Positions 29,875 through 47,115 of a stretch of 64,000 bases of DNA are shown here, piece after piece. Source of the DNA: Maricaulis sp. (lineage in GTDB: Bacteria > Pseudomonadota > Alphaproteobacteria > Caulobacterales > Maricaulaceae). Within the stretch, counting starts at the first letter, position 1. Each line of letters begins with the position of its first letter. Location: the NCBI RefSeq assembly GCF_017642925.1, contig NZ_JAEPOL010000005.1, positions 62,001-126,000 of the forward strand, read 5' to 3'. A program made the position numbers and the translations under genes. A model generated the notes under the pieces. The model did not search any database. It was not told the origin of the DNA and worked only from the letters and a program-made list of their open reading frames with translations.

Positions 29875-30135
29875 ATGGCCACACGCAATGTTGTCCTGAC
29901 CGAAGCCCAGTCCGGCCTGATTGACCGGCTGGTGGCATCTGGACGCTTCCAGAATGCCTCGGAAGCCATGCGGGCCGGCCTTCGGCTTCTGGAAACCGAG
30001 GAAGCGGAACTTGCCCTGCTGCGTGACCGGCTTCAAACCGGTATCGCGCAGGCCCGGACCGGCGAACTCGCCGCCGGCAGCGGCGAAGATGCCGTACGCC
30101 GGGCTTTCGCACAGGCCCGGGCAAGCAAGGATTGA
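29875..30135 (+). CDS. parD: ParD-type antitoxin
   Basis: From the ATG at 29875, with AAAGGAG before it, this is an 86-residue protein. The ribbon-helix-helix region is MATRNVVLTEAQSGLIDRLV, then SGRFQNASEAMRAGLRLLE. The acidic/amphipathic C-terminus would bind ParE. Its stop overlaps the start of the toxin gene. It represses the shared promoter and neutralises the toxin. Confidence 0.92.
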   Translation: MATRNVVLTEAQSGLIDRLVASGRFQNASEAMRAGLRLLETEEAELALLRDRLQTGIAQARTGELAAGSGEDAVRRAFAQARASKD

Positions 30136-30449
30136 CCCGCAACTGGCGCCTCACACGGCAAGCTGAGGCCTCCCTTGTCGATATCGCCCGCTGGACCCTG
30201 AAAACCTTCGGCCCCCGCCAGGCCGAGGCCTATGAAACCGATCTCATTGCATGCTGCCATGAGATCGCAAACGGCACCCGTTTTTCACAGAGCTGCCGTC
30301 AGCTGGTGGGTGCCGAAATGACCGAAGACCTGCGCTACGCGCGCGCCGGAGAGCATTTCGTCGTCTTTCTGGAAGCCCCGGCAGAGATTGTCATCGTCGA
30401 CTTTCTTCACGCCCGGTCAGACCTCCCCGGGAAACTTCGATCGGAGTAA
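30132..30449 (+). CDS. parE: ParE-type toxin (RelE/ParE superfamily)
   Basis: The start is a TTG overlapping the parD stop by 4 bases (TTGA). The 105-residue protein shows WRLTRQAEASLVDIARWTLKTFG, then EIANGTRFSQSC and LRYARAGEHFVVFLEA, all typical of ParE. ParE toxins poison DNA gyrase. The non-ATG start would keep toxin synthesis low relative to antitoxin. An unrecognised membrane protein gene starts 6 bases downstream. Confidence 0.9.
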   Translation: MTRNWRLTRQAEASLVDIARWTLKTFGPRQAEAYETDLIACCHEIANGTRFSQSCRQLVGAEMTEDLRYARAGEHFVVFLEAPAEIVIVDFLHARSDLPGKLRSE

Positions 30450-30455
30450 ATCAGG

Positions 30456-30890
30456 ATGTTCGACATTCTCACCGTCATTGCCGCCTGGTTCGGCGCGATA
30501 ACAGCTGCAGTCGCTCTCGTCTGGCAGATTGCAAGCGACCGAAGACGCCGGAAAGAAATTGAAGAGGAACGCCTGGAGATCGTTTCCAAGCCCGTTGCGG
30601 CTTGGCATAGGGGAACTCTAGTGCGTTACAGACCGCGTATAAGCGGACCGACATATCATTTGAAATTCAAAATCGAAGGGGCGACGTGGGATCCCCACGA
30701 AGCCAACGGCAATTGGATCGAGAGTGGTCCTAGCGGCGGCCGCTATGTAATGGTGCCAGACGCCGACGGTCGTCATCGCACACATATTATTTTCCGCTCA
30801 GGCCCGCCAGAAGGCGCCTTTGTTGACTTCAAAGTCGTTGAATCGAACTCCAACAAGCCGGTGGTCAGGCGCCGCGTATATATCGAGTAG
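30456..30890 (+). CDS. Unknown single-pass membrane protein downstream of parDE
   Basis: An N-terminal membrane segment (FDILTVIAAWFGAITAAVAL) is followed by a short basic, coiled stretch (SDRRRRKEIEEERLE). A soluble domain of about 95 residues with a beta-rich pattern follows (TYHLKFKIEGATWDPH, RYVMVPDADGRHRTHIIF). I do not recognise the family. It begins 6 bases after parE with an AGGA site, so it is probably co-transcribed. Its base composition is less GC-rich than that of its neighbours. It could be a third gene of the toxin-antitoxin transcript or separate cargo. Confidence 0.65.
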   Translation: MFDILTVIAAWFGAITAAVALVWQIASDRRRRKEIEEERLEIVSKPVAAWHRGTLVRYRPRISGPTYHLKFKIEGATWDPHEANGNWIESGPSGGRYVMVPDADGRHRTHIIFRSGPPEGAFVDFKVVESNSNKPVVRRRVYIE

Positions 30891-31315
30891 ACACACAATC
30901 CCATACTTGGGTCATCCGTCACGCCCGAACCTGTTTTGCGGGGATAACCCCGATCTTATCCCCACCCTGCAAAGACCGCGCATAATCACCCCACGGTCCG
31001 CTGTCGCCGGTGCACAGGCAAGGCGGAGCGGGTGGCGCTGAGGCGGGCACGATCGGCCGGCTTCTTAATCGGCTTCACCGGGTTGCAGACGATCCTGCGG
31101 GACTTCTCGTACCCATATTAGATACCGGATACCCCCGAAGGGTCGTCTGCAATGCCCGCCCTCCGGCGCTGACACGCCCGGAGCCGCTTTCGTACGCCCG
31201 TGAGAGATACCCCGATATCCCCAAGTAAATTGAGGACTTCCAGACACCAAATATCAACATGCCGCTGCGACAAACCGCCCCATAGCGCGACCAAAAAAGA
31301 AAGTTGGGGTTGGTC
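30891..31315. other. Non-coding stretch with an inverted repeat upstream of the GGDEF/EAL gene
   Basis: No supported gene was found in these 425 bases. A perfect 8-base inverted repeat GGGGATAA / TTATCCCC with an 8-base spacer lies at 30940-30963. An AT-rich stretch near 31220-31310 before the MHYT gene probably contains its promoter. No tRNA or small RNA could be recognised. Confidence 0.5.
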
Positions 31316-42581: not shown

Positions 42582-45500
42582 CTAGATCGTTTTAGATGGC
42601 TTTTCGGAGATGTCGCGCGTCACTGCTACCACCATCTTGCCTTCAGCGAGCCCGTCATTCACTGCCGCACACTTCGCTCTCACAAGTGTCTCGAGCTCCT
42701 CAAAGTTAACTACGTTGCCAGCGACTCGCTTTCGAAATGCCTTTCTTCTGACTTTTCTGGTCTTCTTGTCCTTCATCGCCTTCCTAGGAAGTGACGCATT
42801 AACGAGAACATATACTCCGGTGTGTGATGAAGCCTCGAACAGATACTGGTTCGAGAGCTGCTCATCAGGAGTGTTGACCAACTGATTTCCAGTCCAATGC
42901 CTCTTGTCGGCGAGCTTAATCTCAACCGACACCTTTCCCAAGGCCTCCACTCTCGAATGCAGCCTTAGGTCGGGCCGCTTCTCCCCTGCGACTTCTTGCT
43001 CCCGTATCACCGTGTAAAAACGCTCCCCTACCTCTCTCAGGCGAGCGGCCAACCAATTTCGTAGGTCACTCTCTTCGGATGCACCACGCCTGAAAAATGC
43101 GCTTTCGTCATCATCGGAAGAGTGTAGTTTTTCCAAGAGTGTCTCTATATGGGATTGGCAAAGTCGTCTGAACTCTTCCACAGTCGTGGGAGGCTTAGAC
43201 TGATCGTTTAGAAACCGGATCGCGTCTTCAGGTGAAAATTCGATTCTCCTTCCGGCTCCTCGCTTCATCAGCTCGATTTGATACAGAAACGTATCTCGAT
43301 AGCTCAACAGTTCTTTCGACTGCGCCAGTCTCCCGAATGCACCAACAGCATCGGGCGTTTGAAGCGCCGCCAACATGTTGGTGTAGCTTCGCCGGCTGCT
43401 CTCGGCGTGGTCCTCTTTTCCCGGCGAGTAGACGCCCTCGTGCCTCAGATCCTTCTCAGGTGGCCATGCGAGATATGATGCCCGAACCAACCACTCAAGC
43501 AGAATAGGATCGCGCTCACATTCTCTTCTCACAAAATCCGATCCGCCTTCCAGAGCAGGCTTGTTTCCTTCGCGTCCTAAATATTCAAAGAAGAGCGCTC
43601 TTTGTGCCGCGATCTGTAGATCGCCAAATGTTGCAGCTAAAACGCGTTTGGCGGCACCAGTGTTTGCGTTCATCAACCCATCAAGCCACCCCCAAGCTTC
43701 TCGAAAGTCGAAACGGGTCCAAGCCGCCAGATAGCCGGAAGCAAGAAATCTTGATAAGCGGTTCAGTTCGACGCTCGGGGCACGAGCCACGATATCCAAG
43801 CAGAGCATTCTGTCGCGGCGTTTTTTGGGCAGTGCAATCATCAACATCCGAAGAAGCATCGGAGCTACTAGGTTTCTGATTTCGCTGTTGGAGTAGGCGA
43901 GTTTGCTGACGCAGTCCGATACATGGTGGTCGCCCTCACCTTGCTCGGTGCTGAAATCCGTCAACAACGCAATTTTGACCTCGGAGCAAAACGGGGCTGG
44001 AAACCGGGTCGCCAATTCCTCGACCCACACGGGAAAGCCGTTCAATTCGTGAAATGCGTAACGAAAGGCTTTTCGCGCGTCGTCGGCCTCATTAGGCAGC
44101 TCGCCACATTCGTAGTCCAAGTTTATGCCCGCTAGGCCTATGTGGCCCAGATATGTCCGCCTCTCAAAGTAGCTTGTATCATGGTTCTTCCAGTATTGTC
44201 GTAAACCATCGCTAAATAATTGGGCGATCTCAGAATTATATTCTTCCTTGACAGCACGGATAGTTTCATATCCAGGATCATTGGGAGCTTTGTTAAAAAG
44301 CCAAATTGCATTGCTGTTGTCGAACTCACCCGCAGCAATTCCTTTTCGATTGCTCCAGATGAACTTGCGATTCCTTCGCGCAACATTCCAAGACCGCAAT
44401 GCTTTCTTCTTGCCCCTTATCCACCTTTGGGGCTCGTAGCGATAATGATGTTGGAAGCGCGACTTCGTTCGAAGAAACCAGCCGCTAACGCCGAACTGCC
44501 GCCTTTGTTCCTCGTCCCCATATCTCTTGAGGTGCTGCCTGAGTACACTTAACGCCGTTTTGCGGTCTGCGGCCGAGAGTTTGCCCAGAACCGTTTGGGC
44601 CAAGTCGAGTAGAAATGCCCGCTCCGATGGATCGGTTGCGTCGGAAGCGCGCCCACAATAGTGGGATACGTCAGAGTGAACGAAGAGGTGTCCGTTTTGG
44701 TCTCTAACATTAAACTCTAAGGGGTGAACCAATCCAAACGGAACCCTATTCCGCTGACCACGATCAGAGAACAAGTTTACCCGCCGTTGAACAAGAGCGT
44801 GTTTGACTTCGGGTCTGGCTCGAAGGCCACCGGCTAAAATATTCGTCGGCGACTTTCGCCCGAGTAAGTCGATCCTGTCATCTATGCCCATCGCCATCTC
44901 CACGGCGTTCAGCAAGTCACTGTCGTCAGGACGAACGCCTTCATCACCAACTAGTTCGGACGCTAGGTAGATAATGGCTGGCACAAACTTCCTGTACCGC
45001 ACCGAGGTATTCGGCATTCGGTATCGGTTCTCGTCGCGACCAGCAAATGCAAAGCCCAACAGCACGGATAACCAGGCCCGCCTCTCTGACTTCGACAAGT
45101 CGTCAAGTATTTCAATCAAATACTCATATGTCGCGGACGAGTAGTTCGAGCGCTCTCTTTGGATTCTGGAAAGAATGGCAATAACATCGAGCGGTAACGC
45201 CTCACCAAGGCTATACCTCAAGGCCTTCAGCTGAAACATGTTCCAGTTCGGCGCCGAGTCGGTATCCTGTGGGTCTGGTGGTGTGGCCGTAAGAGCTTCT
45301 AAAAGCACAGCAGCGCGATAAGTCTGGTCTCCTATCTCATAGAGAGCCGCGCACGCTTCCGCCTTGATCTTATAACCAGTATTCGGATTTCCGACATACC
45401 CCGCCAGTTTGGGGGCCAATGGTTCCATTCGGCCAAAGCGGGCAATATCGATCAGAAACTCGGTCAATTCAGGAGAATTAGACTTGTTTAACAGCTCATC

Positions 45501-46955
45501 GACTACAGGCCACAAGTCCGGGTGTGTGAACCGCTTTACGTCGTCATGATAGAACCATTCGCCTCTATAGCGAAGGTCGTCGTAGAGACGCGCCTGGTTG
45601 CGCAGGATGTCCTCTTTGTCGCCCACGGATAGTGACTTTGGGTCTCCAGTTTCGATGAGCAGGGCGGGTCTTGCATTTGCGACAACCGCCTTTGCTGAGT
45701 TGTTCAAGGCGGCTAACCAGCCCATGACATGTTCAGTCGACTGTGGAATCGATCGCTGACCCAGCCCCTCGGCAAGCAGTGGGGCAATTGTATTTCTCGA
45801 ATGCGCTCTGGCTCGCAAGCTCTCGTCGAAATGTTCAGCTGCAAGGAAGTCGCGAATCTCTCGATGCGCGAACCTGATGCGCCCCCCAACAGAGGGCTGG
45901 AAAAGCCCGCTGGCGAGTAGTTGGCGAATTTCTGTAGTCGTCCATGCCTCCACATCCGTAGATAGGATATTTGCAGCATTCATCGCATCGCCGGCCGCTA
46001 AGGGGAGGACGGTAAAGTCCTGTTTGCCTGACAAAATCACAAAAGCTGCAAGTTTAGCGGCGGCCTTCCGTGCTCTGTTAACGTCAATGTTCAGCCGGTC
46101 TTTGCCTTCAGATCGTCCGAACAGCCGCCACGCAACCAAATCGCGCATAACTTGAAGTCGGGACTTGAAAACTTCCTCAGAGGAGCGGCCCTCATCAACA
46201 GCCTTCTTCCAAACATCCAAAAATAGATGCGCATCCAGCGGCTGCTGTATTAGACCAGCAGAAAGATTGGTGTTCACGGCGTTGATGAAGTCCGAAGGAT
46301 TTACGTCGCGAGAAATGGCAAGTTTCTCAATGTCTCCGGTCGCAAGCGGTGCGAGGCGAAAAATTTTCTGCGTCGGACTATCGGCTTCCAAGTCCTGCTT
46401 GGCATCTCGTGCCTGCCTCACGAAACGAGATAAACGTCTTAGATCGCCATCCCCTAGCCACTCGCTTGGGCGGCTCGTGACGAGAACATGTATCGGTGCC
46501 AGTCGCCGCCCGATTTCTTGCGAGACAATGCTAAGGGCCCTTTCTAGAGCACTTTCATTGCGCGAAGCCGGCAGACGCGCCTCGTCGAGTGCGTCGAAGA
46601 ACAGAAATCCGCCTCTTCGAGATCGCTTCCATTTTTCAAAACGTTCGCTTTGATTTTCCAGTTCGAAGTCGAATGAGCCCGTCAGGGAGCCGTCCTGTAG
46701 CGCCTCCAATCGCAGTAAGAACGCGTCTTCTCCTTCCTCAATGAGACGCTTCACGTGTTGACGAACTTCTGTAGTTTTCCCCGAGCCCGCAGTGCCTAGG
46801 AGAACAGACACATCATTCGAAAGAACTTCTTCCCACGTTTTCCCTGTCTCGCGGGTCGCGAGCGAAGCCCAAATACTGTCCAGTTCATTGTCAAATTCTG
46901 TCGATTGAATTTCGACAAAGCGCCGCGACAATGGAATGTACTGACCGCTGTTCAC
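42582..46955 (-). CDS. Giant NACHT/STAND-type NTPase with C-terminal PD-(D/E)XK nuclease-like domain (putative defence protein)
   Basis: The best start is the GTG at 46955, preceded by AGGGAG (1457 residues); the frame is open to 47156. Residues about 35-330 form a NACHT-like NTPase. It has a WEEVLSNDVSVLLG lead-in, Walker A GTAGSGKT at 54-61, Walker B LFFDALDEA near 119-126, and VLVTSRPSEW near 157-166. A winged-helix-type end RFAHREIRDFLAAEHF follows. The middle 900 or so residues are helical and partly HEAT-like. The C-terminus shows PDLRL (Asp 1329), VEIKLAD (Glu 1345, Lys 1347) and EQLSNQYL (Gln 1366), matching a PD-(D/E)XK nuclease. Base composition is clearly less GC-rich than its neighbours, suggesting transfer. 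No membrane segment or partner gene was found. The antiviral role is inferred. Confidence 0.85.
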   Translation of the reverse strand: MNSGQYIPLSRRFVEIQSTEFDNELDSIWASLATRETGKTWEEVLSNDVSVLLGTAGSGKTTEVRQHVKRLIEEGEDAFLLRLEALQDGSLTGSFDFELENQSERFEKWKRSRRGGFLFFDALDEARLPASRNESALERALSIVSQEIGRRLAPIHVLVTSRPSEWLGDGDLRRLSRFVRQARDAKQDLEADSPTQKIFRLAPLATGDIEKLAISRDVNPSDFINAVNTNLSAGLIQQPLDAHLFLDVWKKAVDEGRSSEEVFKSRLQVMRDLVAWRLFGRSEGKDRLNIDVNRARKAAAKLAAFVILSGKQDFTVLPLAAGDAMNAANILSTDVEAWTTTEIRQLLASGLFQPSVGGRIRFAHREIRDFLAAEHFDESLRARAHSRNTIAPLLAEGLGQRSIPQSTEHVMGWLAALNNSAKAVVANARPALLIETGDPKSLSVGDKEDILRNQARLYDDLRYRGEWFYHDDVKRFTHPDLWPVVDELLNKSNSPELTEFLIDIARFGRMEPLAPKLAGYVGNPNTGYKIKAEACAALYEIGDQTYRAAVLLEALTATPPDPQDTDSAPNWNMFQLKALRYSLGEALPLDVIAILSRIQRERSNYSSATYEYLIEILDDLSKSERRAWLSVLLGFAFAGRDENRYRMPNTSVRYRKFVPAIIYLASELVGDEGVRPDDSDLLNAVEMAMGIDDRIDLLGRKSPTNILAGGLRARPEVKHALVQRRVNLFSDRGQRNRVPFGLVHPLEFNVRDQNGHLFVHSDVSHYCGRASDATDPSERAFLLDLAQTVLGKLSAADRKTALSVLRQHLKRYGDEEQRRQFGVSGWFLRTKSRFQHHYRYEPQRWIRGKKKALRSWNVARRNRKFIWSNRKGIAAGEFDNSNAIWLFNKAPNDPGYETIRAVKEEYNSEIAQLFSDGLRQYWKNHDTSYFERRTYLGHIGLAGINLDYECGELPNEADDARKAFRYAFHELNGFPVWVEELATRFPAPFCSEVKIALLTDFSTEQGEGDHHVSDCVSKLAYSNSEIRNLVAPMLLRMLMIALPKKRRDRMLCLDIVARAPSVELNRLSRFLASGYLAAWTRFDFREAWGWLDGLMNANTGAAKRVLAATFGDLQIAAQRALFFEYLGREGNKPALEGGSDFVRRECERDPILLEWLVRASYLAWPPEKDLRHEGVYSPGKEDHAESSRRSYTNMLAALQTPDAVGAFGRLAQSKELLSYRDTFLYQIELMKRGAGRRIEFSPEDAIRFLNDQSKPPTTVEEFRRLCQSHIETLLEKLHSSDDDESAFFRRGASEESDLRNWLAARLREVGERFYTVIREQEVAGEKRPDLRLHSRVEALGKVSVEIKLADKRHWTGNQLVNTPDEQLSNQYLFEASSHTGVYVLVNASLPRKAMKDKKTRKVRRKAFRKRVAGNVVNFEELETLVRAKCAAVNDGLAEGKMVVAVTRDISEKPSKTI

Positions 46956-47115
46956 AGATGCTCCCTGACACTCTTTGGTTGATGGTATCAGTGGTATCGC
47001 CAGAGCACCATCTGGGGTGGTGGGCATTTTTATCAGTTTCAACAAGATAGAGCGTGACTGCGGGCGGGAGAATGCCTGCTGTACCCAATGTCCGCTTCCA
47101 GGATTATCCAGCCCC

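Follow-up and report, generated by a model that had tools for sequence, protein, structure and literature searches.

Avs1-5 are large STAND NTPase sensors, some of them with PD-(D/E)XK effectors, in which the effector sits at the N-terminus and the sensor at the C-terminus. The same order, i.e., effector first and sensor last, is the one given for bacterial NACHT (bNACHT) proteins and all STAND NTPases in a recent report (PMC12169576), where bNACHT25 and bNACHT32 unite a NACHT-type NTPase and a PD-(D/E)XK nuclease in one protein and require a nuclease residue for defence. In the alphaproteobacterium Caulobacter, the CARD-NLR system LypABC likewise combines an NLR-like ATPase with an endonuclease, but it spans three genes, includes serine peptidases and carries the endonuclease on LypC rather than on the ATPase protein LypB (PMC13236601). 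In addition, NCBIfam describes two families, namely HyoA (NF058534) and EruA (NF058535), as NACHT domain-containing antiphage protein, the entry NF058536 being unrelated to either. The present analysis concerns a HyoA/EruA-like NTPase-nuclease gene in a 64,000-nucleotide stretch of Maricaulis sp. (GCF_017642925.1, contig NZ_JAEPOL010000005.1, positions 62,001 to 126,000), this whole stretch being hereafter called the window.

Relative to the tripartite layout set out in PMC12169576, the family of the window protein runs in the opposite order: the Walker A motif at residues 54-61 leaves little space for an N-terminal effector, the D/ExK/Q residues lie at 1329-1366, and a predicted nuclease-type domain in last position is the norm of the family, i.e., NTPase-middle-nuclease where bNACHT25 and bNACHT32 are nuclease-NACHT-sensor. 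A preliminary description of this DNA had already placed the effector-like domain at the end opposite to that published layout, which holds; it had also proposed a candidate new defence system, which is not supported, since NCBIfam contains HyoA and EruA with the same layout and the protein matches both. The gene amounts to a new branch within an antiphage family that already has a name, not to a new kind of system. It probably encodes a single-gene, horizontally moving antiphage sensor-effector from a separate clade of a HyoA/EruA superfamily, in which a STAND switch, a sensing middle region and a C-terminal nuclease cutting DNA would be combined; what looks like a new part, worth following, is the variable C-terminal module. 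Assignment to Avs or another PADLOC system was rejected, the only matches at E up to 1 being four weak ones, namely PDC-S68 twice, PDC-M54A and RecD_like; none is named Avs, the Avs content of the library not having been checked. The C-terminal position of the nuclease-type domain further sets the protein apart from Avs1-5.

Architecture and conservation of the protein

Motif conservation was followed in 54 distinct long homologues, i.e., the window protein and the 53 of 75 profile matches remaining once 10 that ran off their locus and 12 that were duplicates or the window had been removed. As the underlying profile had 16 rows, all with the nuclease, and open reading frames (ORFs) under 900 residues were excluded, this sample favours nuclease carriers; locus L059 is inside the 54, L154-L159 are outside, and L069 (at a contig end) and L151 (a C-terminal fragment) are uncounted. 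Conservation along the chain was measured against 25 HyoA-like homologues, the four fragment ORFs of L011 and L015 being left out. Both of these loci belong to one genome (G085), where a HyoA-family gene is broken near model position 677 into two neighbouring ORFs, about 700 and 773 residues long.

The N-terminal STAND-like NTPase of the preliminary description is supported, the Walker A, Walker B-like and TSRP motifs being in place (Table 1) and retained, together with the C-terminal motifs, in homologues at 14-25% identity. In a relative on a Pseudomonas plasmid (L061:6125-10351), the Walker A region is unaligned and the K60 column holds R. The best Pfam matches are of STAND type, all below cut-off, i.e., NPHP3_N (0.00035), nSTAND_NTPase5 (0.00098) and nSTAND3 (0.014), and the Pfam NACHT family (PF05729) reaches 14.1 bits where its gathering score is 26.7; the label STAND-like is therefore based on the motifs and on the HyoA and EruA matches. 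Helicase-type models also match the P-loop under the threshold, namely Viral_helicase1 (0.066) and AAA_30 (0.18) in Pfam and RecD_like (0.023) in PADLOC. The whole protein searched against the PDB returned zero matches.

At the other end, the PD-(D/E)XK signature noted previously (D1329, E1345, K1347 and Q1366) is in place, and 52 of the 54 homologues share E1295, E1319, D1329, E1345, K1347, Q1366 and Y1371 unchanged, among them some just 14% identical to the window protein. Among 51 C-terminal domains (sets A6 and A8), which were selected for carrying the domain, the series E/E/D/E/K/Q/Y/G is identical in all 51. These residues follow one another as E ... D-(L/I) ... (V/I)E(I/L)K ... QL..Y ... 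G, as in PD-(D/E)XK enzymes. Individual matches of this region to nuclease families are weak: PDDEXK_9 (E=0.033) and PDDEXK_3 (0.069), each found with one of 21 members among 11 families listed, and DpnII-MboI (0.062), found with one of 30 members among 14 listed families. One profile of the domain matched PDB entry 4ic1 (E=0.47, fifth of six matches), a Cas4-type nuclease labelled "Uncharacterized protein" in the table, and the D, ExK and QL positions coincide in this alignment; the other PDB profile gave three matches, all unrelated. On the basis of motif invariance, rather than of any significant family match, a PD-(D/E)XK-type C-terminal domain is a well-supported prediction.

Between these two ends, identity to the 25 HyoA-like homologues, computed per 50 residues, falls to 0.10-0.17 in residues 551-900 from 0.17-0.36 in residues 51-550, and reaches 0.36 in residues 1301-1350, so that the NTPase half and the core of the nuclease are the best conserved parts. 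Placing the sensor in this middle region is only suggestive. For the middle, putatively helical or HEAT-like in the preliminary description, no Pfam repeat family gave a match.

Family placement

The window protein aligns with the HyoA model in one colinear stretch, residues 9-1392 to model positions 1-1384 of 1430 (589.8 bits, E 1.2e-176), as expected of the HyoA architecture. The curated HyoA cut-off is 1200 bits, more than twice this score. The EruA match comes in two parts, i.e., model positions 67-764 (NTPase and middle) and 1039-1267 (C-terminal), for 150.6 bits against a cut-off of 1000 bits. As both score cut-offs were missed, filing the protein as HyoA or as EruA was rejected. All 16 members of the diverse alignment match the HyoA model and 15 of the 16 match the EruA model. 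With HyoA, the protein shares its length, an N-terminal NTPase, a C-terminal D-ExK-Q domain and a colinear model, but it is 21% identical to an over-cut-off member (L010) and falls into a separate tree group; an over-cut-off EruA (L075) bears the same D/ExK/Q residues, but identity over the aligned residues is 14%.

A 54-row tree (quick method, SH-aLRT support, midpoint root) joins the ten-row clade of the window (support 100) to one Rhizobium and one Sinorhizobium plasmid row (L058/L059; support 100). Apart from it stands a 27-row group (support 99) holding all 8 rows known to exceed the HyoA cut-off, rows being so labelled only where the score was seen and the others left unlabelled; the window protein thus does not group with over-cut-off HyoA members. 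A 15-row group (support 100) including EruA is split from the window clade deeper still. From this topology, we read the window clade with L058/L059 as a third group of one HyoA/EruA superfamily.

Insertion site and distribution

As previously described, the gene lies alone between ordinary genes, namely a LysR gene on one side and a 2OG-Fe(II) oxygenase gene on the other. Of nine window ORFs tested near it, six have a Pfam family, all ordinary, and three have none. The LysR-to-oxygenase spacing is 4752 bp in the window. The junction was compared in 18 other congeners, of which 17 could be scored, G079 (69% complete) offering no usable flank matches. In 16 of the 17, the flank matches are separated by 24-112 bp, with LysR followed by the oxygenase in 8 and directly by asparaginase in the other 8; in the last one (G070), 1769 bp lie between LysR and asparaginase, too short for the gene and occupied by an oxidoreductase-like ORF. 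Because the junction is empty of the gene in all 17, the window carries an insertion at a variable junction, and the question of presence or absence in relatives, raised by the preliminary description, is answered in favour of transfer rather than of a conserved locus. Within the genus, 2 of 19 genomes carry the gene, counting its own, and they do so at different sites; the two Maricaulis copies do not come out as sisters in the tree (split supported at 99), which makes separate acquisitions likely.

Composition points the same way. The gene is AT-richer than its surroundings, as stated earlier, with a G+C fraction of 0.525 against 0.658-0.701 in six gene stretches close by, and its immediate flanks of 218 and 160 bp are likewise at 52-53%. 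Elsewhere in the clade, the gene stays at 0.485-0.523 at 8 loci, the remainder of which ranges from 0.473 to 0.624; this steadiness across loci of differing composition fits a gene that moves. Altogether, horizontal transfer of the gene is supported by these comparisons. A transposon was considered and rejected, the sole direct repeat joining the flanks being 26 nt at 77% identity; the insert contains no second long ORF, and its flanks show no convincing terminal repeats. As for the junction itself (window; L181), the interval from LysR to asparaginase is variously filled by the oxygenase, by nothing, by the oxidoreductase-like ORF of G070 or by the gene plus the oxygenase.

The window clade is rare but scattered. 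The window protein aligns near full length, at 70-77% identity, with at least 8 genome loci, a lower bound as exact peptide patterns were used, and with one listed plasmid (H1) at 76%; one more genome (G798) encodes the same protein as L003. The hosts are of Rhodobacterales, Rhizobiales and Maricaulales type. Of 385 genomes sampled from the class, 9 gave any match, its own among them, and no other exceeded 40% identity, and a search with the core in one further class found 2 of 78 genomes, both already known. Homologues are carried by 64 plasmid records, 22 of them from Burkholderia. The viral-contig collection yielded zero relatives with the window protein alone and 6 with the diverse alignment, to which later scans added none.

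Some relatives have neighbours of possible relevance. Genes of the Mrr_cat restriction-endonuclease type (L002:399-986 and L007:9360-9941) lie about 45-60 bp upstream on the same strand and represent two of the 10 neighbour ORFs tested, from 7 loci; with PADLOC, 2 of 10 neighbour ORFs from the window clade had matches, both weak. SIR2 and HerA genes lie about 3 kb from L062, and a SIR2-family gene near L154.

C-terminal variants in relatives

Some members of the superfamily lack the nuclease module. On a contig from the viral collection (L072:5956-9921), a HyoA-like core (983 bits with the HyoA model, positions 1-1247) ends in a hydrophobic stretch, by eye an apparent single membrane helix in place of the nuclease. 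On two Rhizobium plasmids, CP041205.1 and NZ_CP021027.1 (L156:1871-6756 and L157:1856-6759), the end of a Fic gene overlaps by 4 bp the start of a HyoA-like core that stops just short of the nuclease module. This Fic gene has an intact HPFLDGNGR motif and matches Pfam Fic (1.4e-14) and PADLOC SoFic (3.8e-23); since the Fic and core pairs of L156 and L157 are about 95% identical, they count as one lineage and one event. L154 and L155 keep the C-terminal signature, which L156 and L157 are without.

Other short ends were not used in this argument. In Sinorhizobium (L059:5545-9639), similarity to the window protein goes no further than residue 1212, and an IS630 gene lies at the opposite end; three more Sinorhizobium plasmids also end at residue 1212, and these may reflect decay or a natural nuclease-free variant. 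L158, truncated and followed 118 bp downstream by a transposase gene, may likewise be decayed, and L159 is in several annotated pieces and outside the alignment. With L059 and L158 set aside, the idea of exchange is built on two cases, i.e., L072 and the Fic pair. From these, the last 200 residues look like a replaceable cartridge, and the variants suggest that the C-terminal module acts as the effector. Extending this to the whole HyoA/EruA/window superfamily as an "inverted NLR", with an N-terminal switch, a middle sensor and an exchangeable C-terminal effector or a separate Fic gene, is a tentative view, in which doubt still slightly outweighs assent.

Were the cartridge idea true, a single NTPase core would power DNA cutting, attack on the membrane or Fic-mediated protein modification, which would mirror the N-terminal effector exchange in Avs and bNACHT proteins. 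The Fic variant, with its candidate effector as a separate gene, would then give a two-protein system for studying the signal from switch to effector. More generally, a widespread mobile superfamily of this kind lets one ask whether the effector changes while the sensor core stays, and by which route an NTPase switch turns on a domain about 1200 residues further along. The open-access literature searched gave no match for effectors at the C-terminus, or for Fic partners, in defence by NACHT proteins. At L151:985-2355, a 456-residue ORF corresponds to a HyoA-like C-terminal fragment (nuclease part) continuing into sequence that resembles nicotinate phosphoribosyltransferase.

Functional interpretation

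A STAND-type switch is the most economical reading of the protein. The N-terminal NTPase would act as an ATP-driven switch and the fast-evolving middle would recognise an infection cue; activation, probably via oligomerisation, would release the C-terminal PD-(D/E)XK nuclease, which would cut DNA and so arrest the phage, possibly sacrificing the cell. The evidence behind it comprises the motifs and their conservation, the architecture, the separate clade, the insertion, the patchy spread and the loss or replacement of the C-terminus; we infer the role in defence because the nearest two families are named antiphage, the gene is mobile and some relatives have suggestive neighbours. DNA, instead of RNA, as the target belongs to what is predicted, as do the nuclease activity, the sensing and the protection from phages.

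Several observations weigh against this reading. With the HyoA and EruA cut-offs missed, the activity annotated for those families cannot be assumed for the window protein, and no primary report for either name was found in the open-access literature. The C-terminus has no significant profile match to any described nuclease family, and its weak nuclease-family matches sit among unrelated ones of like or better rank. No defence gene was recognised by Pfam in the nine nearby ORFs of the window. Low identity also occurs outside the middle, namely in residues 1001-1150 (0.12-0.16) and 1201-1250 (0.14). As the middle is not the sole poorly conserved part and exchange is seen in two cases, both the cartridge idea and the antiphage sensor-effector carry slightly less weight. 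The names HyoA and EruA, searched in open-access full text, led to no phage-defence paper by title, nor did the consulted part of the DefensePredictor report (PMC13092281) lead to their source.

Restriction enzymes can also unite a PD-(D/E)XK domain with a P-loop NTPase, and the window protein might act in their way, the middle or the nuclease reading foreign DNA directly and the NTPase translocating, with neither a protein trigger nor cell death. The helicase-type models among the weak P-loop matches and the Mrr_cat genes just upstream in L002 and L007 are in keeping with this, but the best Pfam matches, albeit sub-cut-off, are of STAND type, the nearest named families are NACHT, and a nuclease-free core with Fic or with an apparent membrane helix is unfit for a DNA-tracking enzyme; such a function is unlikely. 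Defence directed at plasmids or gene transfer instead of phages, or a housekeeping role in DNA repair, would agree with the many homologues on plasmids and is nonetheless quite improbable, as 17 of the 19 genomes of the genus do without this AT-rich, inserted gene and both nearest NCBIfam families are named antiphage.

The usual STAND layout puts the sensor at the C-terminus (PMC12169576), and nuclease activity in the window clade is a prediction; the C-terminal domain might then be a nucleic-acid-binding sensor, with killing by something else. Against this, the D, ExK and Q residues are invariant in every selected domain, which does not suit an inactivated sensor, no further effector domain was detected in a protein whose Walker A starts at residue 54, and the relatives free of the domain bear either a Fic gene or what looks like a membrane helix, so that a C-terminal sensor is very improbable. 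The antiphage sensor-effector with a C-terminal nuclease accordingly remains the preferred reading.

Gene start and minor features

The ORF, strand, coordinates and GTG start of the preliminary description were all recovered (Table 1). The sole long minus-strand ORF of the insert begins, in its longest form, at ATG 47156. This longer protein was rejected, as its extension would overlap the oxygenase gene, and GTG 46955 is preferred because the start site is common to relatives, 8 of 10 aligned rows having GTG or ATG at that position and the other two, L002 and L007, TTG. A ribosome-binding-site-like AGGGAG lies at 46961-46966, five bases before the GTG. A chance ORF was rejected as well, given the long homologues and invariant motifs.

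Table 1. Features of the gene and its insertion, in window coordinates.
Feature	Position	Strand	Remarks
HyoA/EruA-like NTPase-nuclease gene	42582..46955	minus	1457 aa; GTG start 46955, stop 42582
Walker A GTAGSGKT, residues 54-61	46773..46796	minus	K60 in 53/54 distinct long homologues
Walker B-like FFDALDE, residues 119-125	46581..46601	minus	D124 and E125 in 54/54
TSRP, residues 160-163	46467..46478	minus	R162 in 54/54
Longest poorly conserved stretch, residues 551-900	44256..45305	minus	Tentatively proposed sensor
PD-(D/E)XK-type module, residues about 1257-1457	42585..43187	minus	Absent or replaced in some relatives
Asp1329	42969..42971	minus	52/54 homologues
Glu1345-x-Lys1347	42915..42923	minus	52/54 homologues
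Gln1366	42858..42860	minus	52/54 homologues
Inserted segment	42364..47115		Absent at junction in 17/17 other congeners with both flanks found
Upstream DNA common to some relatives	46956..47060	minus	blastn matches to 47051-47060 in L003, L006, L009

Just 5' of the start, an imperfect inverted pair TGATAC...GTGTCA (window 46966-46990), partly present in relatives, could be an operator or part of a promoter. Elsewhere in the window, a tRNA-Gly of 97 bases was called at 30018-30114, within a stretch (30001-31000) where the G+C fraction dips to 0.588.

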